In this document: positions 835-20,266 of the stretch, piece after piece | How positions within the stretch are numbered: the first letter of the stretch is position 1 | How the letters are laid out: each line of letters begins with the position of its first letter | Origin: a virus | Reading direction: 5' to 3' (one strand) | IMG/VR virus record: IMGVR_UViG_3300009505_000091 | Coordinates: 1-20,266 of that record | DNA: 20,266 bases | Notes under the pieces: generated by a model | Databases searched by the model: none | Told to the model about the DNA's origin: nothing | What the model saw: only the letters and a program-made list of their open reading frames with translations | Translations under genes and position numbers: made by a program

Positions 835-1446
835 ATGGCTCATATATCTTCTATCGGTGCGTCCAAGTTCACTACTCTGGACTACGTACTAAACACTGCG
901 AACAGCGACATCAGCACAGCTGCTGATCTGAACGACCTGTTCATCTCTAACCAAACTGCTATCCTTGCAGCTGACTCTCAGATCGACGAAGTTCCAGAAT
1001 CTGCTGTAGTTCACGTTGGCAACATCCGTGAATTCCCTAGCTTGGGTTCTCCTGCAAACATCGTAAACGTTCCTGTTTACGGCGCTGCTGTTTCTTCACA
1101 GGTAGCTGGTCAGTCTGACAACGCTTCTTTGGAATTCTCTTTGAACTACGTTCCTAGCGATCACCACGCACTTGAAACTATCCGTAAGGCTGGTTCACGT
1201 TTGTGTTTCAGAGTTCGTTTAGCTGATGCTGACATCACTGTTGATGGTAACCGAGTTATCACTGCTGACAATCTTGACACTTTTGCTGACTTCTTCTTCT
1301 TCGGTAAGATCGCATCTTTTGAGATCCAGCCCGGACTGACTGACGCTCTGCAAGCTACAATGTCAATCGCTATCGACGGCGACTTCAATGGCCCGTTCAG
1401 CTTAGTTGCTGGTAGCGGCACAAGCACTTACGCACTTCCTGCTTAA
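835..1446 (+). CDS. Major tail protein (tail tube subunit)
   Basis: A 203-residue protein that would polymerise as hexameric rings into the tail tube (lambda gpV type). The sequence is beta-rich with the order expected for a tube fold: a helix near residues 40-50, a central block ASLEFSLNYVPSDHHALETIRKAG in which a strand leads into a loop and helix, and a late strand pair (FFFFGKIASFEIQPG, then ATMSIAIDGDF). AAGAGG at 819-824 precedes the ATG. Codon choice differs sharply from the neighbours: 14 of 15 Ile codons are ATC and 4 of 6 Arg codons are CGT, the mark of a very highly expressed structural gene. A UUCG-loop hairpin follows the stop. There is no C-terminal Ig domain of the lambda gpV kind. 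Its place between terminator and chaperones supports the assignment. Confidence 0.85.
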   Translation: MAHISSIGASKFTTLDYVLNTANSDISTAADLNDLFISNQTAILAADSQIDEVPESAVVHVGNIREFPSLGSPANIVNVPVYGAAVSSQVAGQSDNASLEFSLNYVPSDHHALETIRKAGSRLCFRVRLADADITVDGNRVITADNLDTFADFFFFGKIASFEIQPGLTDALQATMSIAIDGDFNGPFSLVAGSGTSTYALPA

Positions 1447-1823: not shown

Positions 1824-2126
1824 ATGAAGCAATTTATCGGACAAGTACAAACACGAACAGTTTCTTTCATGGACGGAGAAGTTGAAGTTAGAACTCTCAC
1901 AGTTGGTGGTGCTAAAGCTATCGACCTGAAGACCAAAGAACTGGCTAAGAAGAAAGGCGCATCCGATATGGATCAGCTCGAGCTTCTGCGATTCATCATT
2001 CGCACCTCAGTAGTAGGCGCAGAAGAGATGACTGACGAAGAGATTGACGGTTTCCCTATGACTGAACTAACCAAACTTGCTGAAGGCGTCATGGGCGTCA
2101 CTGGTGCTCCAGAGGGAAAAGGCTAG
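1824..2126 (+). CDS. Tail assembly chaperone, short form (gpG-like)
   Basis: The 100-residue product of normal termination. The N-terminal half is beta-rich (IGQVQTRTVSFMDGEVEVRTLTVG). The C-terminal half is helical, with the acidic stretch EEMTDEEIDGFPMTELTKLAEGVM (about residues 67-90) that is common in siphophage tail assembly chaperones. In lambda, gpG binds the tape measure protein in excess over the frameshifted form and helps recruit tube subunits. AGGA at 1812-1815 is the likely ribosome site. The last sense codons GAG GGA AAA GGC before the TAG contain a perfect slippery heptamer, so a minority of ribosomes should continue into the -1 frame. Position just after the tube gene and close upstream of the tape measure gene fits. 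Confidence 0.85.
   Translation: MKQFIGQVQTRTVSFMDGEVEVRTLTVGGAKAIDLKTKELAKKKGASDMDQLELLRFIIRTSVVGAEEMTDEEIDGFPMTELTKLAEGVMGVTGAPEGKG
2114..2120 (+). promoter_or_regulatory. Programmed -1 ribosomal frameshift slippery site G GGA AAA
   Basis: In the frame of the short chaperone the codons read GAG GGA AAA GGC TAG. The heptamer G GGA AAA fits the X XXY YYZ rule: after a tandem -1 slip the tRNAs re-pair as GGG AAA. The zero-frame stop is only 3 nt after the heptamer, while the -1 frame is open from here to 2452. Lambda uses GGGAAAG at the matching place in G-T, and such frameshifting is conserved in long-tailed phages. I see no convincing downstream pseudoknot; a weak 4-bp GATC/GATC pairing near 2135-2153 is the only candidate. 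Confidence 0.92.
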
Positions 2127-2452
2127 AACCGGCTGATCTATGGCTGTATGATCTCGCTTTTCATTTAGGCATCCCTGTCTACTTGATTGAGCGGGATATG
2201 CCAGCAGCAGAACTGCGTAACTGGGCTAAGTACCTTGATGCAAGACCTATAGGATGGAGGGCAGACAACGCTGCCGCTATGCAACTCTCCGCAGCTGGAG
2301 TGAAAGCAAGTGGCCACGAGTTGTTCAGTTCTCTCGCACAAATGAAAGTGTGGGAAGATGGAAGAGATGAGGAAGAGAAAGAGCGTATAGCGATGCAAAG
2401 CTCCTTATCCAAGTCTGTCTTCGGCGCACTCCTACAACAAGCTCACAAGTAA
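2120..2452 (+). CDS. Tail assembly chaperone T extension, made as a G-T frameshift fusion (1824-2452, 209 aa)
   Basis: This is the -1 frame extension. The full fusion has 99 residues of the G part plus 110 residues encoded from 2120. The T part starts RLEPADLWLYDLAFHLGIP, contains a typical gpT-like segment (MPAAELRNWAKYLDARPIG with W-R-A-D-N-A-A-A-M), and ends in a charged helix (GRDEEEKERIAMQ...). The region from 2120 to the first possible internal start (TTG at 2183) is open, and that TTG has no ribosome site, which argues that this part is made only by frameshifting. In lambda, the T domain recruits tube subunits to the tape measure complex, and a fixed low ratio of G-T to G is needed for tail assembly. 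The next gene starts 14 nt downstream with its own strong ribosome site. Confidence 0.88.
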   Translation, partial: RLEPADLWLYDLAFHLGIPVYLIERDMPAAELRNWAKYLDARPIGWRADNAAAMQLSAAGVKASGHELFSSLAQMKVWEDGRDEEEKERIAMQSSLSKSVFGALLQQAHK

Positions 2453-2466
2453 TCAAGGAGGTCACA

Positions 2467-2868
2467 ATGGCAGTAGGTATAAAACTGTCGCTCAGAGGGG
2501 TTGATAAGACGTTTGCTAACCTCAACGAAGAACTTACCATGTTAGTAAACAACGCTCAAAGATCCTCCGCTATCGCTGCCACTGGTGCCTTGCAAATTAA
2601 GACCCCCGTGGATACAGGTCGGGCCAGAAGTTCTTGGTCGGTAGGAAAAACAAACACTGCTAAAGACGCTGCTTTCACAGCACTCAGGTCAACAGCGGTG
2701 CTAGGGCCAGTCCCTAGTCGCACCATTGAAACTTTATACATAACTAACGGGACACCTTACATTCAGGAATTGAACCAAGGTAGTTCTGTCCAAGCACCAC
2801 CCCGGTTTATTGAGAAAACCCTCAATAAGTACTTCACGTTTACAGCTGGTTCTGTAAAATACACATGA
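2467..2868 (+). CDS. HK97 gp10 / lambda gpZ-like tail completion protein
   Basis: A 133-residue protein with the hallmarks of the HK97-gp10-like neck/tail completion family: an N-terminal helix (NLNEELTMLVNNAQRSSAIAATGAL), the motif T-P-V-D-T-G-R-A-R-S-S-W (about residues 46-57), then LYITNGTPYIQELNQGSSVQAPP, where the family has N-x-x-P-Y-A-x-x-L-E-x-G-x-S-x-Q-A-P, and a C-terminal helix. Such proteins sit at the head-tail interface. A near-perfect AAGGAGG (2455-2461) lies 5 nt before the ATG. The location is odd: this gene normally precedes the tail terminator gene, but here it lies after the chaperones and directly before the tape measure gene. The terminator hairpin follows its stop by 6 nt. 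Confidence 0.72.
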   Translation: MAVGIKLSLRGVDKTFANLNEELTMLVNNAQRSSAIAATGALQIKTPVDTGRARSSWSVGKTNTAKDAAFTALRSTAVLGPVPSRTIETLYITNGTPYIQELNQGSSVQAPPRFIEKTLNKYFTFTAGSVKYT

Positions 2869-2948: not shown

Positions 2949-5900
2949 ATGGCTATCGAAATTGAGGTAAAATCGAATTCGAGACAGGCAAGAGCAGACT
3001 TAGACCGGCTAAATAGTTCAGTTGATAAAATAAATACTTCCACCGAAAATGCAGGGAAGATGTTGAAGCGACTTGCCATCCAAGCAGGTGCTGCTTTCGC
3101 AGTCATCGGGTCTACACGAGCCGTAACTAATATCACAGACTCCTACCGTAGACTAGAGGCACGTATTGCTCTGACTACTAAGAGTACTGAAGAACAAGTA
3201 AGGGCATTCAAGCAACTTAACGCTGTCGCCTTAGAAACACGCTCCAATCAAGAATCACTCGCAGACCTCTACTCTCGGATATCGAGAGCTACAGCTTCTC
3301 TTGGTGTAGAGCAAAAAGAAGTATTAAAGATCACCCGATCTATTTCACAAGCTATAACCATCTCTGGTTCATCTGCTGAATCCGCTAACTCTGCTATTGT
3401 GCAGTTAGGGCAGGGACTAGCAGCTGGTGCTTTGAGAGGTCAGGAATTAAACTCTGTAATGGAACAAACACCTGCTGTAGCGCAAGCTATTGCTCGTGGG
3501 ATGGGCATTACGATCGGTCAGCTAAGAGCCTTCGCCAACGAAGGAAAGCTCTCGGCACTAGCTGTTGTTGAAGCGTTATCTAGCCAGACAGCCTCTATTG
3601 ATGAAGAGTTTAGCAGAATACCCATAACCTTCGCCCAAGCGTCACTTGTGATGAGCACAGGTATTGGTCGGATTGTGAACGAAGTAGATAAAGGTTTAGG
3701 AGTAACTACTAAGATCACGGATAGCCTTATGGCAGCAGGTCACTCGCTGAATGCTGCTGCTGAAGGTATCGGCCTTAATGCTATCGCCTTTAAAGAGTCG
3801 TTCGAGTCGATGACAAAAGGTGGTGCCGTACTAGTAGATTCTCTTAAACACCTCGGACGCGCTTTCCAAAGCTTAGCGGCTATGGCTATCGATCGGATAT
3901 TCTCAACAAAGATGTTGCTTATGTTTCAATCTATAGGGTTTGCTGTAAGAGGGTTTGGCATTGCGCTACTCTACTTACTCGCGCCTCTGACTCGGATAGC
4001 TAGTATAATAGACAGACTAGCATTCAAGATGGAAACCTTTGTTTCCCGCTTCGAACTTGGGCCAATTGAAAAAAGCATGCGTAGCCTCTCCCTTGGTTTC
4101 GGTAGTGCAATAGGCGAGATGGGTTTGGCAATCAACTTATTCATGGCTAAGAGTGGACAAATACTGTTCCTGTTCAGTCGGAAGATAGCATTTGCATTCT
4201 TTAGTTTAGAAGCAAGCATCACTCAAACAGGTATCGCTTTCGGATTACTCGGCAAAGAATTAGGTCTTTCTTTTGGGCTTATGGGCCCAGCCCTCCAAGC
4301 TGTTGGTTCCCTACTAGAAAGCACCCTTGGTAAAATGGTAGGTAACATCGGCAAGTTCTTCTCTAAGGGTCTTATTGAAGAAATAGTAGCCGCCTTTTCT
4401 TTCTTGCAAGCGTATCTATCTAACATGGGCGGTAACGCTGCTGACGCTTTCTTAACTGGTATCTCAAAAAAGATGGGAATAGGTAAAGCGCAATCTTCTG
4501 TAACAGAAGCTCTCTCTGGACTATTCGGAAATTTCAAAGACGTATTTACAATGATGAATAAGGCACCTCTGTCGGGTCTTAAAAGTACTCTTAACAATAT
4601 TATGTCTGTGTTTGAGAATTTCACTGACAAAGTTGCTAAGTACTTCTTTGTAGTATACGATAAGGTAGTTGGTAACAGCTACTGGCCAGATCTGATCGAC
4701 GAAGTTGTAGCATACACTTCTAAGATAGCCCCTGCGCAAGAAGGTATCCGTAGCTTTACTGATAAAGTAAGTGGATTCTTCAAAAAGGGATTTGGGGACG
4801 TCAAAGGACTCTTAAGCTCTGCTGGTGCGGAAATCAAAATCTTCATTAAGTCATTCGTAGAGTCCCTTAAAACTGTAGAAGGCATCGCCCTCGCTATTGC
4901 AGGCGTATTCTTATCGCTAGCAGCGGGAGTTGTCGGGCCAGTCTTTGCTGCGGTATTCGGAGCAGTGTCCTTACTGAGCAGCCTCCTTAGACACAGCTCA
5001 CTTTCTATGGAACATCTTATAGAGTTCTCTGAATCATTAACTGATAAGATAAGAGACTTAGTAAACAACTTTGACTTGTTGAATGATGGACTGAGTTCCT
5101 TTGCTAGTGCAGCAAGCTCAATAGCTTCTAGCTCCCTATTCGCAGGGTTAGCGGAAGGGTTAAAGGGTATTCTTGTGCTGTTAAAGCCCCTTACCATGCT
5201 GATATCTGACACGTTTGGTAGTGCCTTAGTAGGCGCTATTACAATAGGTCTCGCTTACTTAATAGCACCTATTGGTGTATTCGCTGCTATAATGGCGGGT
5301 CTTTTTGCTTCTGAGCTAACTACTGCTTTTGATTCAGTCTTAGGAATGTTCGGATCCAGCATGAGTTCTTTGCTAGGTAGTATTTCTGAAAACGTAGGTA
5401 CTATCGTAGAGAAGTTGACAGAGGCTTTCGTCAGGCACATACCTTACATGGTTGGTCTTGTGTACGAAATTGGCTCAGGTCTCGTCCGTGGATTTCTTGA
5501 CGGGGTACCCCTAATAGGTGGTGCGCTATCTAGCTTGTTTGACCTCATTAATGGGCTCACTCTTGGACTATTAGGTACTGCTGTAGGTGGTGGTATTCTC
5601 TACATGCTATTTGCTCCTAAAGGTCTTAAAACAGCATTAGGCGCTTTGTTCACTTGGATCAGAACTGAAACAGCTGTGCTTTCTGGGCTACAATGGATAG
5701 GCACAAGTTTGATAGCGGAAGGAGTAGGCTTCGCTAAAATGCAATTCGCAGGATTATATGCATGGACTACGGGATTGTTTTCTAGAGCAAGAAGCTACTT
5801 CTCTGACATCCTTTTTGGAGCAGCAGGAAGAGCAGGAGCTGCAGCTGATGCTGCTTTCGCAACTGGTCTATTTAGCAACATATCTAACGCTGCTAACGCT

Positions 5901-8900
5901 GGCTCTTTTGGTACTATGTTTAGAGGCGGGGGACTGCTAAAGAAGCTGCTAGTAGGTGCTGCGGGTCTTGCAGCCTTGTTAGGGATGACCGGCGCTTTCG
6001 CATCTGACGTTGCTGTTGAAGCTGAATCTAGCTTTATGAGCTCGTTAGGAGGAATGGATTTACTGGAGGGAGGTCTTATAGGCTTGTCACTCTTCGGTAC
6101 CGCAGGTGTTACTTGGATTGCTGCTAAACTCGCAATGGTAACCTCCCCTGTATTAGCCGCGCTCACTGCTATAATGCTCCACCCTGTGTTCTTAACTATC
6201 GCAGCTATAGTAGCAGCAATCACTGCTGTTGGTTTAATAGGTGCCTACTTCTTTGGAAAGGGTGATTCGTTAACTGACAAGATGGACAGTGCTGCTCATC
6301 AACTAGCTACGGTCTTTGGTCTGGCTGATAAGTATGTCAGCAAGTACAACCAAAAGGGTGTGTTAGAGTCTATAATGGGCGACTTCGATATAGAGGGTAT
6401 GAATGCTGACCGTATGTTTTACGACCAGTTGGAAGACCCCAGTAAAGAGTTGGCTAAGCTAGGATCAGGTGCTCTTACCGGTGATCAGTTCCAACAGCTA
6501 TCTGAAGCTTCACTTGACGTTCAAAGAGCAATCGATAGTCAAGGTAGAAACCTCACAGGTACTATCGAGTCTGTCAACGCTAATGTTGAGGCCTCTAAGA
6601 AGATTGAAGCAGCTATTTTGCTTACTAACAAGATCTTGAAAGAAGCACAAACAGCTGCTATTGCAAGAGCAGAGCAATCTCTTAAAGACACAAACAGAGT
6701 CGATGGACTCCGTGGCGTTGGTATAGAAGCTAGTTTCTTTGAACAACTAGGTAACGCCTTTGATGGTGTTCTCTCCGCTAACAATGCTCTTGGCTTTGGA
6801 AGACAAGAAACAGAATCAGAAGCTGAAAGCAGAGTAGATCAAGAGCGTAACGACGATGGGGAATTCACCCTAACAGCAGCTAACAATCTCCACAATGCGT
6901 TAGATAAGTTTGCTGAAGATATAGACTCATTGTCACCTGCTAGCAAGCTGGCTATAGATAGTATGTTACAACTCAACGAACAAGTGAAGCAAGGTGCTTC
7001 CACTTACGCCGATCAGGCTCTAGACTTCTTTAGAGAAGCCAAGACTAGCTTCATAGGTTTCGTAACTAGTCAAAACACTGATAACCTAGCCGCACAGGAC
7101 GCTGAGTTAAACTCTCTCAACCGGACTAACGCAGAGGTACAAGAGGCGCAAGCGAACGCTATAACTATAGTAGCGCAAGTTGAGGCTCAGTTAAACTTTA
7201 CTAAGTTCAATGAGGAAGCTACTAAAGCCTTTAAGGAAGTAGGAAAGTCTGTTTCTGCTGTTGATCTAGGATTTCTTAGTGATAAGAAACGAAAGGAAGT
7301 AGGTGCTTTAGTACTGGCTTACAGAGACGCAGCCGAAGTTTTCGCTGACTCTACTACCGAAACCGGCGCTGCTAATGCTGCACTCTTAAAGGCAGCTACT
7401 GAAAACTTGCAGGAAGGCTTAGAGTCTGCCTCAGACAAAGTTTCTCGTAAAGTTAAGTCGATGGGTTTAGACATAAGTGAAAGCCAGTTTGCTAACCTTG
7501 GTTTAGATCAGGCCAGTCGCATTAACGGTCTCTATTTGCAAATAGCGACAGAAGAGAATAAGATTAAAGGTCTTAAGTCTAATCAGGTTTTAGAGCAGCA
7601 AAAGCTGAACAAGAAGATCCAAGAGTACAAAGATATACTAGCAGGTATCCTAGTAGATACTCAAGGCATCAACGTTGCAATATCTAACGCTGGTCTGACT
7701 TACTCTCAAATCACCAACTCTTCAGATGCTCAATTAGTCGCAGTGGCTAATACAGCAAATGAAATTGCTGACATAGAGAGGAAACTAAGTCGCGTAGGCA
7801 CAATCAGTGAAGCTAATGCTGCAGCTTATAGAGCCCAAGTAGTAGCTCTTAAAGAGCAACTTACTCTTCAGAACGAACAGATAGCTGCTACTCGCACTAT
7901 TGGTGAGTTAGTCAACGCTTCCAATCTTTCTCAAGATAACCTTCTTAGGCTTAGTGGTGAAGAACTTACCAACGCTCTTCAGATCGCAGAAGCGAAGCGT
8001 AACCTCGGTCTGGAAATTGCAGCCTTGGGCAAACTTGACGAAGAAAATCTCGCTGTGTATATAGCGAAGACTCAAGAGCTTTACGAGCAAGACCTTTTGA
8101 TGAAAGGCTTACTGGATAGCACACGTACTCAGTACGAGCTAATCAATGGCTTATCTAACATAGGTTTCGCTGGCGGAATAGAAAGGTTCTATGACCTCGG
8201 CCCTACTATGCAAGCAGGTCTTTTAGCCGCAAGTAAACAAGCTGAAAAACTCCAAGCTATAATGGACGCCCCTAATGCAACTAGCGCAGAGATACAAGAG
8301 GCATTTCAACAACAGCTGCTATTAACCAAGCAGACTGAAAAGTTGAACGAAGTAATGGCTCGTGGTACTGAAGTTGCTGGTGCAATAAGAGACACGTTTG
8401 CTGACTCTGTCAAAGACATAGCAGATGGTGTCGGTGGTCTTGGTGATGTCTTCAAGAACGTTATGAAGGAAATCCAAAGCACGCTTATTGACACTGCTAT
8501 AGACACGCTGACCAATGCTGTATTCGGAACCGATGGTGGTTTTGAAGGCGCTATACAAGCGATGTTTGCTAAGGGTATCACACCTCAAGGCGAAGAAAGC
8601 GGTGGATTGTTTGGAAAAGCATCTAGCGCTATCGGTGGTATCGGTGGTGTTGCTAGCATTGGAGAAGGTTCAGATGAGGAAGGTCTCACTGAAGCTGCTA
8701 CCGGTCTTGCTGGTTTCTCAGCATCTATCAAAGGAGCAGTAGGCGGCTTAGCCGAATGGGGAAGTGGTATACTTTCTTCTATCCTTAACTTCTTTGGTTT
8801 CCAAACAGCACAAACAGCTGCTACTGCGGTTACTGCTACAACTACTGGTGTCACCACTGCACTAAGTGCAGCAATGGTACTCGCTACTGCCGCCGCTACA

Positions 8901-9332
8901 TCATTAGCTTCTGCTATGGCTTCCGCAGCGTTTACTTCTGGTATTCCGGGATTCGCTACAGGTGGTTACGTAAGTGGCCCCGGTACTGGTACTTCGGATA
9001 GCATCTTGGCACACTTGTCTAACGGCGAGTATGTTATGAATGCTAAGGCTGTTAAAGAGAATGGTGCGCTGATCGCTGCAATCAACAACGGTGATGCTTT
9101 ACCCAAGTTTGCCACAGGTGGATTAGTTGCCACTGGCCCCACGAATACAGCATCTGCTGCGTCTCAAAGAGCATTAGTCACTGCTGCCCCTTCGCAAGGT
9201 GGTCAAAGTCAACAAGTCATAAACCTGAATATCACAGGTGATATCTCTAGACAGACTAAGAAAGAAGTAATGAAAATGCTGCCATCAATAGCTGGTGGTG
9301 TCAACCAACACAATCGAGAAAATCAGAGGTAA
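2949..9332 (+). CDS. Tape measure protein
   Basis: A 2127-residue protein, by far the largest complete gene here, placed right after the chaperones. Residues ~20-220 match the tape measure N-terminal domain: helical, with TKSTEEQVRAFKQLNAVALE, SISGSSAES-type turns, GQGLAAGALRGQELNSVMEQ, and GMGITIGQLRAFANEGKLSA. There are many hydrophobic segments, for example ~646-680, ~757-785, ~870-890 and a long one at ~1043-1103, as expected for a protein ejected to form a membrane channel. Residues ~1110-1900 are helical and charged. The C-terminal part has the common FATGG-Y/L-V ... GTSDSI ... LSNGEYVMNAKAV signature (from residue 2002) and a second FATGG at 2054. No lysozyme or peptidase motif was seen. 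Tape length implies a tail of roughly 300 nm. The start is supported by AAAGGA at 2934-2939. Confidence 0.95.
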   Translation: MAIEIEVKSNSRQARADLDRLNSSVDKINTSTENAGKMLKRLAIQAGAAFAVIGSTRAVTNITDSYRRLEARIALTTKSTEEQVRAFKQLNAVALETRSNQESLADLYSRISRATASLGVEQKEVLKITRSISQAITISGSSAESANSAIVQLGQGLAAGALRGQELNSVMEQTPAVAQAIARGMGITIGQLRAFANEGKLSALAVVEALSSQTASIDEEFSRIPITFAQASLVMSTGIGRIVNEVDKGLGVTTKITDSLMAAGHSLNAAAEGIGLNAIAFKESFESMTKGGAVLVDSLKHLGRAFQSLAAMAIDRIFSTKMLLMFQSIGFAVRGFGIALLYLLAPLTRIASIIDRLAFKMETFVSRFELGPIEKSMRSLSLGFGSAIGEMGLAINLFMAKSGQILFLFSRKIAFAFFSLEASITQTGIAFGLLGKELGLSFGLMGPALQAVGSLLESTLGKMVGNIGKFFSKGLIEEIVAAFSFLQAYLSNMGGNAADAFLTGISKKMGIGKAQSSVTEALSGLFGNFKDVFTMMNKAPLSGLKSTLNNIMSVFENFTDKVAKYFFVVYDKVVGNSYWPDLIDEVVAYTSKIAPAQEGIRSFTDKVSGFFKKGFGDVKGLLSSAGAEIKIFIKSFVESLKTVEGIALAIAGVFLSLAAGVVGPVFAAVFGAVSLLSSLLRHSSLSMEHLIEFSESLTDKIRDLVNNFDLLNDGLSSFASAASSIASSSLFAGLAEGLKGILVLLKPLTMLISDTFGSALVGAITIGLAYLIAPIGVFAAIMAGLFASELTTAFDSVLGMFGSSMSSLLGSISENVGTIVEKLTEAFVRHIPYMVGLVYEIGSGLVRGFLDGVPLIGGALSSLFDLINGLTLGLLGTAVGGGILYMLFAPKGLKTALGALFTWIRTETAVLSGLQWIGTSLIAEGVGFAKMQFAGLYAWTTGLFSRARSYFSDILFGAAGRAGAAADAAFATGLFSNISNAANAGSFGTMFRGGGLLKKLLVGAAGLAALLGMTGAFASDVAVEAESSFMSSLGGMDLLEGGLIGLSLFGTAGVTWIAAKLAMVTSPVLAALTAIMLHPVFLTIAAIVAAITAVGLIGAYFFGKGDSLTDKMDSAAHQLATVFGLADKYVSKYNQKGVLESIMGDFDIEGMNADRMFYDQLEDPSKELAKLGSGALTGDQFQQLSEASLDVQRAIDSQGRNLTGTIESVNANVEASKKIEAAILLTNKILKEAQTAAIARAEQSLKDTNRVDGLRGVGIEASFFEQLGNAFDGVLSANNALGFGRQETESEAESRVDQERNDDGEFTLTAANNLHNALDKFAEDIDSLSPASKLAIDSMLQLNEQVKQGASTYADQALDFFREAKTSFIGFVTSQNTDNLAAQDAELNSLNRTNAEVQEAQANAITIVAQVEAQLNFTKFNEEATKAFKEVGKSVSAVDLGFLSDKKRKEVGALVLAYRDAAEVFADSTTETGAANAALLKAATENLQEGLESASDKVSRKVKSMGLDISESQFANLGLDQASRINGLYLQIATEENKIKGLKSNQVLEQQKLNKKIQEYKDILAGILVDTQGINVAISNAGLTYSQITNSSDAQLVAVANTANEIADIERKLSRVGTISEANAAAYRAQVVALKEQLTLQNEQIAATRTIGELVNASNLSQDNLLRLSGEELTNALQIAEAKRNLGLEIAALGKLDEENLAVYIAKTQELYEQDLLMKGLLDSTRTQYELINGLSNIGFAGGIERFYDLGPTMQAGLLAASKQAEKLQAIMDAPNATSAEIQEAFQQQLLLTKQTEKLNEVMARGTEVAGAIRDTFADSVKDIADGVGGLGDVFKNVMKEIQSTLIDTAIDTLTNAVFGTDGGFEGAIQAMFAKGITPQGEESGGLFGKASSAIGGIGGVASIGEGSDEEGLTEAATGLAGFSASIKGAVGGLAEWGSGILSSILNFFGFQTAQTAATAVTATTTGVTTALSAAMVLATAAATSLASAMASAAFTSGIPGFATGGYVSGPGTGTSDSILAHLSNGEYVMNAKAVKENGALIAAINNGDALPKFATGGLVATGPTNTASAASQRALVTAAPSQGGQSQQVINLNITGDISRQTKKEVMKMLPSIAGGVNQHNRENQR

Positions 9333-9943: not shown

Positions 9944-10498
9944 ATGAAAAGTACTCCAACTTCGATCCTTACGGGTCTCGCCGCAGACGTAGCAGAACCC
10001 TATTTGATTCTAGATATGGAGTTTGCTGCCTTTCATGTAAGGCTTACCAACTTACCTTTTGATGTATCAGTTGGTGGTAACACTTATGTTTCTGACGGGG
10101 GGTTAACTAAGTTTTCCCCTCCTCAGTTAACTAATGTAGCAGACAAAGAAACATATCGTATAGAATTAATAGATTTTAATAATGAATTCAAATCATACTT
10201 TGATAACAGTGCAATAGGGACAGATGTTACCGTCAGGTTAGGTATCACCGGTAACTACACAGATCTTGACACTGTATATAAAGGTAGAATCGATGCTACC
10301 CAAATTACTATGTCACCTTCAGACGGAACCAAAGATGCCATCATTGAATGCTCTTCTCCGTTTGGTGCCTTAGACAGAACAAACGAAAGGCTCTCAGATG
10401 ATCAGACCCAGAAAGGCATTAATGCCACTGATACCTGCTTTGAGAACATATACAAAAACATAGAATCCATCCAAGTTAGATGGGGAAAGAAACCATAA
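9944..10498 (+). CDS. Tail tip hub protein (lambda gpL position; DUF2163-like)
   Basis: A 184-residue protein following the previous gene by 2 nt, with AGAGG (9929-9933) as ribosome site. It is beta-rich: EPYLILDMEFAAFHVRLTN, then GGNTYVSDGGLTKFSPP, ADKETYRIELIDFNN, and DVTVRLGITGNYTDLDTVYKGRIDA. The C-terminal part (DAIIECSSPFGALDRTNERLSDDQTQ, ending IQVRWGKK) resembles hub proteins of the DUF2163 / gp27-like type, where a strand of the form I-x-C-S-S precedes an R-T-N-x-R-L turn and a final W-G-K. The likely role is a hub ring under the tape measure, between distal tail protein and central tip protein. No Fe-S cysteine cluster of the lambda gpL kind is apparent. In lambda and gene-transfer-agent gene orders the next gene would often be a peptidase; here the gpJ-like gene follows directly. 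Confidence 0.6.
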   Translation: MKSTPTSILTGLAADVAEPYLILDMEFAAFHVRLTNLPFDVSVGGNTYVSDGGLTKFSPPQLTNVADKETYRIELIDFNNEFKSYFDNSAIGTDVTVRLGITGNYTDLDTVYKGRIDATQITMSPSDGTKDAIIECSSPFGALDRTNERLSDDQTQKGINATDTCFENIYKNIESIQVRWGKKP

Positions 10499-17521: not shown

Positions 17522-20266
17522 TGTCATATACTATCGATCTAAATAACCCCAAGTACAATGTTAGCCTCTCACGAGTAGGCGCACAAGGTGCCAAGGGTAC
17601 ATCCGTGTCCAACGTTGTTATCGATGAAAACGATGCACTGATGGTCACTCTTGTAGATGGTGCTGGTGTCGTTACTGAAACGATTAATGCTGGCACTATC
17701 GTAGGTGTAGCTCCTGCTGACTTGACTGTCTTGTCTCACTGGACATTTGACCCTGTTAATCGAAAACTGATCTCAGACGTTGCTATTGAAACAACCCTGA
17801 ACTCTATCTACTTGGGTGAGCAGCACAAGATGTCTTCTGGTTCAGAGAACATCTACTTCACTAACTTAACCAGCGACATAAACTTCTTCCCTATGTGGGG
17901 TGGACTAAAAGACCAGAGCATTACTGTTAACCGTGATGCCACAGGTTTCATACCTCCAAGCGGACGAATATACTCAGATATGTTCTCCTTGCCTCTCGGT
18001 GGACAACCAAACCCTTTGACATCAACAGGCTATGCTGGTGATAACTACTTCGGTATCAACATCGCTGGACTAGGTATTACGACTGTTGCGGCAGAGCAAG
18101 TCAATGAAGACGTTCGTCTTGAATACCGTATTACTATTGCTGGCAATCAGGTGTATATGCAAGAGCTGCCTCGAAATGCTTTACGTTCGTCAGCTGCTTC
18201 CATTATCTACCCGAATGATGTTATCGAATGGTTCTTTGACCACCCTGTCGATGTTAGAGCAGGTACTACTTTGTTCGCAGAGATACACAAAGTACGTAAA
18301 AGCGATGATGTCGATTTAGGTATCTTCCAAGTTCGACAAGGTGACACAGTAGATCCTAACACTGGATTGTACAGATACCAAGCAACAGTTCACAATAGAT
18401 TGTTCGAAGACAAAGATATCGAACTGATCTCCCCTTACCTCAAGTATAAGGCGATGGACTTCAGTGCAGATAGCACTGGTGGTGTCATCCTCCTTAAAGA
18501 CTTAACATTGGCAGCAGGAACAGAACTTCTTATTCCTCACCCTGTTAACACGCTTCAAGCGATAGCTAATGGTACTGAGATACAGATCAAAGCTAAAGGT
18601 GGAGCAAAAGTAATCATCGAGTCTCTCCCAGTAACCGGCGTGAGCATCGGCGGTGTTCTTGTAAACTCTGTCTTGAACCTTGCTGTAACAGAACTAAACA
18701 ACTTATTCACTAACACTCTCAGCTTTGCTTCACAAGGGAACCCTGTAAACAGCTTTGCCCTTAGTGGCAACAACCTAACTCTTGGTTTAACTGACGGTAC
18801 TTCTTACACAGTAGATGTTACTACATTAGGTGTAGATACTGACAACTTCGTATCCAGCGCTGCCTTGAACGGTTCTGATCTGGTTCTTACGATGGACGAT
18901 GCTACTCTTGTCACTGTTGATGCTACAACTCTCCTCCTTGACGAGAATGATGTAGTCCAAAGCGGTACGCTAGTTGGTGATGACTTAGTACTAACCTTGA
19001 GCAACAGCCAAACAGTTACTATTGACGTAACAGCATTGGGCTTAAGCAGTAACGCCACAGTGGTTAGTGGTGCGATGAATAATGATAACATAACCCTCGA
19101 TCTGACTATGAGCGATGGCTCCATAATCGGGATAGACGTAGCTAACTTAGTAGTCGATCCTAACACACACGTAAACTTCGGTAATGTTGTGGGTAACTCT
19201 TTAATCATGTCTCTTACTGACGGTTCTAGTGTTACTGTCGATGTATCTACTCTCAACCTCGATTCTAACGATTACGTGGTTAGCGGTGGCCTTAATGCTG
19301 ACGGTATAAACATCGATCTAGTATTGAACAACGGTACTACGATCCAGTTGCCAGTAGCAGGTTTGGCTGTTGATAACGACACGGTAATCACAGGTGGCAC
19401 AGTCTTAGGTACTGACTTACGTCTTACCCTTAGCACTGGCTCTATCATCATTGTTGACGCAACTGATTTCACCATTGACACTGATACCACGATTACCAGC
19501 GGTGCTATGAATGCTGACGGTGTTAACATCGATCTGACCATGAGCGATGCGACTGTAGTTCAGATACCCGTAGCAGCCTTAGCAGTTGATACTAACACTG
19601 TGGTTTCTAGTGGCCTAGTTAACGGCACAGATCTAGAACTCACACTTAGCAACGGCACAGTTATTGTTATTGATGCAACAGCTTTCACCTTGGCAGCGAG
19701 TGTCACCGTTGTTAGCGGTGCTATGAATGCTGACGGTATTAACCTTGATTTAACTATGAGCGATGCTACCACAATACAGGTAGATGTAAGTGACTTAGCC
19801 CTCGACACAAACACTGTTATTTCTAGCGGTGCTGTTGTAGGTACAGACATCCAGCTTACTCTTAGCTCAGGTGTTGTTGTTTCTGTAGATGCAACTTCTT
19901 TGTTGTTAGACACTAATGACTTTGTGGCCAGCGGTGCTATGAATGCTGACGGTGTTAACATCGATCTCACGATGGACAGCGGTACTGTCATACAGATAGC
20001 GGTAGGTGATTTAGCACTCGACACTAACAACTTTGTGGCTAGCGGTGCTGTTGTAGGTACTGACTTAGTCCTTACGATGAGTGATGCTACTACGATTACT
20101 ATTGATGCTACAACCTTGGCTACTGGATCAAGTACACAAGTGGCCAGCGGTGCTGTTGTAGGTACTGACTTAATCCTTACGATGAGCGATGCTACTACGA
20201 TTACTATTGATGCCTTGAATATGGTCAATGGTTCTACGATGACTGCTACAAATGACGACTGGTACA
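17521..20266 (+). CDS. Giant repeat tail fibre/adhesin (partial, runs off the window)
   Basis: The frame is open from the ATG at 17521, which shares one base with the previous stop (TAATG), to the last base. That gives at least 915 residues with no stop. Residues ~1-62 are a likely anchor: NPKYNVSLSRVGAQGAKGTS, a short collagen-like element common at fibre N-termini, then one degenerate copy of the repeat (NVVIDENDALMVTLVDGAGV). Residues ~63-410 form a beta-rich region without a recognised family (HWTFDPVNRKLISDVAIE, FFPMWGGLKDQSITVN, YFGINIAGLGITTV, ELISPYLKYKAMDF). From residue 411 at least 14 tandem units of 34-37 residues follow, consensus like S-G-A-x-x-G-T-D-L-x-L-T-x-S-D-x-T-x-x-x-x-D-A-T-x-L-x-x-D-T-N. 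They probably build a long trimeric beta shaft. A host-binding tip would lie beyond the window. Confidence 0.85.
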   Translation, partial: MSYTIDLNNPKYNVSLSRVGAQGAKGTSVSNVVIDENDALMVTLVDGAGVVTETINAGTIVGVAPADLTVLSHWTFDPVNRKLISDVAIETTLNSIYLGEQHKMSSGSENIYFTNLTSDINFFPMWGGLKDQSITVNRDATGFIPPSGRIYSDMFSLPLGGQPNPLTSTGYAGDNYFGINIAGLGITTVAAEQVNEDVRLEYRITIAGNQVYMQELPRNALRSSAASIIYPNDVIEWFFDHPVDVRAGTTLFAEIHKVRKSDDVDLGIFQVRQGDTVDPNTGLYRYQATVHNRLFEDKDIELISPYLKYKAMDFSADSTGGVILLKDLTLAAGTELLIPHPVNTLQAIANGTEIQIKAKGGAKVIIESLPVTGVSIGGVLVNSVLNLAVTELNNLFTNTLSFASQGNPVNSFALSGNNLTLGLTDGTSYTVDVTTLGVDTDNFVSSAALNGSDLVLTMDDATLVTVDATTLLLDENDVVQSGTLVGDDLVLTLSNSQTVTIDVTALGLSSNATVVSGAMNNDNITLDLTMSDGSIIGIDVANLVVDPNTHVNFGNVVGNSLIMSLTDGSSVTVDVSTLNLDSNDYVVSGGLNADGINIDLVLNNGTTIQLPVAGLAVDNDTVITGGTVLGTDLRLTLSTGSIIIVDATDFTIDTDTTITSGAMNADGVNIDLTMSDATVVQIPVAALAVDTNTVVSSGLVNGTDLELTLSNGTVIVIDATAFTLAASVTVVSGAMNADGINLDLTMSDATTIQVDVSDLALDTNTVISSGAVVGTDIQLTLSSGVVVSVDATSLLLDTNDFVASGAMNADGVNIDLTMDSGTVIQIAVGDLALDTNNFVASGAVVGTDLVLTMSDATTITIDATTLATGSSTQVASGAVVGTDLILTMSDATTITIDALNMVNGSTMTATNDDWY
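18751..20266 (+). repeat. Tandem beta-repeat array, at least 14 units, mostly alternating 35/37 residues
   Basis: Unit starts are at 18751, 18853, 18958, 19063, 19174, 19279, 19390, 19495, 19606, 19711, 19822, 19927, 20038 and 20143. From the third to the twelfth unit, lengths alternate strictly between 105 nt (type A, like SGAVVGTDLxLTLS) and 111 nt (type B, SGAMNADGxNIDLTM), a 216-nt two-unit period. Type B units 8 and 12 share 38 identical bases from AGCGGTGCTATGAATGC onwards. The last two units are both type A and almost identical. The array continues or ends beyond the window. Confidence 0.9.
20038..20214 (+). repeat. Recent tandem duplication of one fibre repeat unit
   Basis: The 72 nt from 20038 and the 72 nt from 20143 differ at four positions by direct comparison (GCT/GCC, GTC/ATC, AGT/AGC, GCT/GCC), with only one amino-acid change (V to I). 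The copies are exactly 105 nt apart. This is far closer than any other pair of units in the array, pointing to a recent duplication or to conversion. Confidence 0.88.

Follow-up and report, generated by a model that had tools for sequence, protein, structure and literature searches.

Results

The window analysed here, a stretch of 20,266 nucleotides from a single metagenomic virus record, very probably carries a programmed -1 ribosomal frameshift like that of lambda G/GT, which would yield a short G protein and a 209-aa G-T fusion. The G-like ORF, encoding a putative short tail-assembly chaperone of 100 aa, occupies the zero frame at 1824..2126 on the plus strand, and the frame of this ORF as read from the sequence sets the phase of the slippery heptamer GGGAAAA at 2114..2120 (+) as G_GGA_AAA. 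A single GGC codon follows the heptamer and then comes the zero-frame TAG (2124..2126, +) that ends G, so the original prediction was correct in placing the heptamer in phase with the stop 3 nt further on. It was equally correct about the -1 frame, which is open from 2084 to a TAA at 2450-2452 and encodes a T-like extension of 110 aa (2120..2452, +), and about the junction of the predicted fusion, where ...APEGK from the G part continues into RLEPADLW... of the T part. The -1 frame had also been described as having no ribosome site of its own. Indeed AGGA, GGAG and AGGAG are all absent from 2105-2215, the only Shine-Dalgarno-like word in this interval being a GAGG at 2112 that overlaps the heptamer, and the earliest ATG, GTG or TTG of the frame is the TTG at 2183, 62 nt past the heptamer and inside a conserved block.

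A nucleotide search for near DNA relatives of the window among phage records gave no match. Relatives were gathered by protein similarity and are thus not selected for the heptamer. Fifty-three distinct relatives carry a heptamer in the zero-frame phase (GGGAAAC in 49 and GGGAAAA in 4) with a T homologue in the -1 frame, and the spacer from the heptamer to the G stop is 3 nt in 37 of them, 0 nt in 14, 9 nt in one and 18 nt in one. These relatives are not independent, 33 being left at <80% protein identity. The alignment proposed in the original prediction as a check therefore finds the heptamer and both frames conserved. A sister group (L105-L111 and L113-L115) retains GGGAAAG, the heptamer of lambda.

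The third codon positions at the site show that this conservation is not that of a protein sequence. The codon preceding the slippery codons specifies eight different amino acids (E in 24 relatives, A in 15, S in 4, V in 4, L in 3, plus M, Q and T), yet G is its last base in 53/53, compared with 776/5004 codons (15.5%) elsewhere in the G genes. The slippery glycine is likewise GGA in 53/53, while only 73/353 of the other glycine codons in G genes are GGA. Among the 36 closer relatives, codon pairs that specify the same residue are identical in 100% of cases at E97 (185 pairs), G98 (630) and K99 (502), where codon identities of 48, 30 and 52% are expected. The two codons 3' of the slippery codons are constrained as well because of the overlap with the zero-frame stop, and about 6 codons past the slippery codons the constraint is at background level in the same 36 relatives. 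Frozen wobble bases are expected if a slippery site is under selection and would not be produced by selection on the protein alone; by this wobble-base test the heptamer is conserved far beyond chance across the 53 distinct relatives.

The window contains another in-phase heptamer, a lambda-type GGGAAAG at 10483-10489 near the end of the ORF 9944-10498, which we considered as a further frameshift site and rejected. The six relatives examined at this position keep Trp-Gly-Lys but encode it as TGG GGT AAA or TGG GGG AAG. Since the residues are kept and the codons are not, the heptamer there is due to chance and can be used as a negative control for the site at 2114-2120.

The T half of the predicted fusion is related to Pfam family PF06223 (Minor tail protein T), as judged from profile matches: the window scores 21.5 bits (3.1e-4), below the gathering cut-off of 25.9 for formal membership, and all 15 relatives tested match at E <= 0.1, every match being weak and the best 1.3e-5. 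The T half also matches the tail protein family phrog_337 at 7.2e-8. The gpT-like character ascribed to the -1 frame is thus borne out by a signal that is weak in each sequence and present in every relative tested. Over T codons 5-21 the pairwise differences at codon positions 1, 2 and 3 are 0.265, 0.145 and 0.611 (36 relatives), and the -1 frame evolves as a protein from its first codons. In 27/53 relatives it has no ATG, GTG or TTG before T codon 13. Taken together, these two observations mean that translation most likely enters the -1 frame from upstream.

For the G half we obtained an AlphaFold model (pLDDT 77). Its four best solved structures in VIA-align were 3fgx, 2ob9, 5ir0 and 3klu, with Z from 6.8 to 5.8 over 85-90 residues. 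They include the HK97 tail assembly chaperone (2ob9; Z 6.8, 90 residues) and YqbN (3klu; Z 5.8), and the next chain, an unrelated one, had a Z of 3.0. The predicted fold is that of a tail-assembly chaperone; we consider the support moderate because Foldseek alone gave no match to the model with E <0.001. Profile PF10109 (Phage_TAC_7) matches G weakly, with 15.4 bits for the window, below the gathering cut-off of 25, and with weak matches in 8/14 relatives, the best at 6.7e-5. A sequence search of solved structures returned nothing, and NCBIfam nothing useful.

The surrounding genes appear in the order tail terminator, tail tube, an 82-aa ORF, G-T, tail completion and tape measure, which fits a long-tailed phage. 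Matches to phrog_158 (8e-9) and to the lambda-like tail tube profile PF16460 (1.4e-5, below cut-off) assign 835..1446 (+) to the major tail (tube) protein, with which the T domain is expected to pair. G-T lies between this gene and the putative tape measure gene, with one tail completion/Neck1-like gene (2467..2868, +; phrog_169, 2.2e-16) intervening before the latter. The putative tape measure protein of 2127 aa (2949..9332, +) is recognised by its size and its position after the chaperone genes, and its counterpart in Roseophage DSS3_VP1 is annotated as a tail tape-measure protein. It is about 2.5 times as long as lambda gpH (853 aa); by the usual length rule for tape measures, should it apply, the tail would measure at least some 300 nm. 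For the 82-aa ORF at 1529-1777, which separates tail tube and G, neither Pfam nor PHROG gave a match. Over 75 aa it shares 44% identity with the equivalently positioned Kolga_gp6 of a Pelagibacter phage; judging from this similarity it is a conserved small tail-module gene. At the other end of the window the last large ORF runs off the contig; its C-terminal portion (18800-20265) consists of diverged repeats like 'VVSGAMNADGINLDLTMSDATT', and Tandem Repeats Finder reports a 216-bp period at 19672-20064.

The region downstream of the heptamer, described in the original prediction as lacking an obvious pseudoknot, is not free of structure and contains a predicted stable RNA hairpin at 2143..2205 (+), with -27.8 kcal/mol for 2139-2208. 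Its onset is 22 nt past the heptamer, farther than that of usual stimulators, which are spaced by 5-9 nt. The fold of 2141-2200 was equalled by 0/1200 synonymous-codon permutations. In 128/1200 permutations, however, some window within T folded as stably as the best T window, which limits the significance of the hairpin. A comparison of 41 windows of 60 nt in 33 dereplicated relatives puts the minimum at +20 (mean z -1.2, sem 0.29), with 8 relatives below -2.5 there against 0 to 5 at other windows. Hairpins occur at similar places in the relatives with pairings that differ between lineages, and RNAalifold found no common structure in 27 relatives, which gives no support to a conserved pseudoknot or to a stem shared among them. 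We regard the hairpin as a lead to a possible part of the mechanism. The idea that it masks the internal ATG at +77 was set aside, as the predicted stem excludes this ATG in L012, L037, L041, L043 and L049.

A few lineages depart from the common arrangement. One sequence shared by eight contigs (L063-L070) reads GGGTAAG TAA ATG, with the slippery site broken and an ATG directly after the G stop (L063:1774-1782, also L064-L070), and L112 has no heptamer and an ATG overlapping the G stop in TAATG (L112:1039-1044). From these sequences, stop-start coupling has apparently replaced the frameshift in both, or in L063 the stop is possibly read through instead. That an ATG was gained where the heptamer disappeared is consistent with T normally being reached through the heptamer. 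In L090-L092 and in Pelagibacter phage Kolga the -1 offset is kept without a canonical heptamer, which counts against the frameshift reading. The L090-L092 site (L090:644-670) has no obvious start codon and contains a CCCCT run, which may act as a non-standard slip site.

Discussion

In phage lambda most ribosomes make G and a small share slip to make GT, G binding the tape measure protein and the T part the tail tube protein, and -1 frameshifting in the G/GT gene pair is conserved across long-tailed phages (PMC5009743; for the lambda chaperones themselves, Levin 1993 and Xu 2004 as cited there), as the original prediction had stated. By analogy most ribosomes in the phage studied here would translate 1824-2126 and stop at the TAG to give the short chaperone G, while in a minority the tRNAs on GGA and AAA would slip back one base at 2114-2120 and the ribosomes would read on in the -1 frame to 2452, producing the 209-aa fusion. 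G would then coat the tape measure protein and the T part would recruit the major tail tube protein, the ratio of G to GT would matter for tail assembly, and neither protein would stay in the virion. Our analysis establishes the heptamer, its phase and conservation, the coding character of the -1 frame and the predicted chaperone fold of G; that slippage occurs, how often it does so and how G and GT divide the labour we infer from this comparison. Frameshifting in lambda runs at a few percent.

The main competing possibility is that T is an independent gene, translated from a start within the -1 frame (TTG 2183 or an ATG at 2198) or by ribosomes that re-initiate once they have terminated G. 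The stop-adjacent ATG of two divergent lineages (TAAATG in L063-L070, TAATG in L112) speaks for it, as does the internal ATG at +77, which is common in relatives. The window itself, however, offers no start before 2183 and no AGGA or GGAG word, the TTG at 2183 is unconserved, and the protein is conserved from the heptamer onward, ahead of any start. A separate T gene would moreover leave the frozen wobble bases of the heptamer unexplained, and we judge it very unlikely.

Slippage of the RNA polymerase on the A run, giving mRNAs of altered frame, is less probable still. The window does have four consecutive A, but in 49/53 relatives the run is only AAAC, and three A are too short for transcriptional slippage; the relatives moreover retain the complete X XXY YYZ pattern. 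As for a sequencing or assembly indel, the least credible of the three readings, the window is indeed one contig, yet dozens of independent contigs, as well as the GenBank phage DSS3_VP1, show the same offset and heptamer, and this conserved offset already refutes it. Programmed -1 frameshifting is therefore the reading we retain.

A bolder proposal goes further. The downstream hairpin, lying 20-35 nt away in several relatives with different sequences, might have been selected to tune frameshifting, or what becomes of the terminating ribosome, from a distance beyond the usual 5-9 nt, and the replacement of the frameshift by stop-start coupling in some lineages might mean that free T can substitute for the GT fusion. 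We hold this combination to be unlikely. The lineages in which the site was lost and a start gained are natural experiments on the need for the fusion itself.

Compared with lambda, the window shares a small ORF between the tail tube and tape measure genes with an in-phase GGGAAAN near its end, and a -1 extension related to the Pfam T family. It differs in having GGGAAAA where lambda has GGGAAAG and a tail-completion-like gene between T and the tape measure. The statement that lambda has its heptamer at the same place holds for phase and position near the ORF end but not for the distance to the stop, which is 15 nt in lambda and 3 nt here. Profile comparisons with lambda G and lambda T, each as one sequence, were not significant, so "G-T" names a role rather than a proven close kinship.

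Both heptamers found in this family have already been reported as slippery sites for the same role, GGGAAAC in KL1, Colossus and HCTV-1 and GGGAAAA in Bush. Burkholderia phage KL1 (gp18/gp19; PMC3483164) has GGGAAAC directly before the zero-frame stop, like 14 of our relatives, and an intervening gene before the tape measure; it belongs to another phage group and its stop is TGA, whereas in the window the second codon is AAA and the spacer measures 3 nt. Microbacterium phage Bush (PMC11749239), with the heptamer of the window, and Caulobacter phage Colossus (PMC3556154), with that of 49 relatives, resemble this family in the heptamer and are also of other phage groups. The closest annotated relative spanning both halves is Roseophage DSS3_VP1 (MN602266, 29696-30402), which has GGGAAAC, a -1 shift and homologues of G and T before the tape measure gene, and differs in its 0-nt spacer, at ~39% identity.

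The original prediction had warned that gene callers would miss the fusion or call a false start, and this is the case: in the GenBank records of DSS3_VP1 and EBPR siphovirus 1 the two halves are entered as separate hypothetical proteins without a fusion, the second ORF of DSS3_VP1 starting at an internal ATG. Under-annotation of frameshifted G/GT genes is already known (PMC10885494). The finding is thus correct but ordinary, a known lambda G/GT mechanism in a new phage family. The wobble-freeze test, in which any residue may precede the site while the third base is always G, provides clean non-experimental support for slippery sites. For the phages themselves, our analysis adds a broad and largely unannotated family, mostly uncultivated, to the G/GT set, and in its members GT comes out split or cut short under standard annotation.
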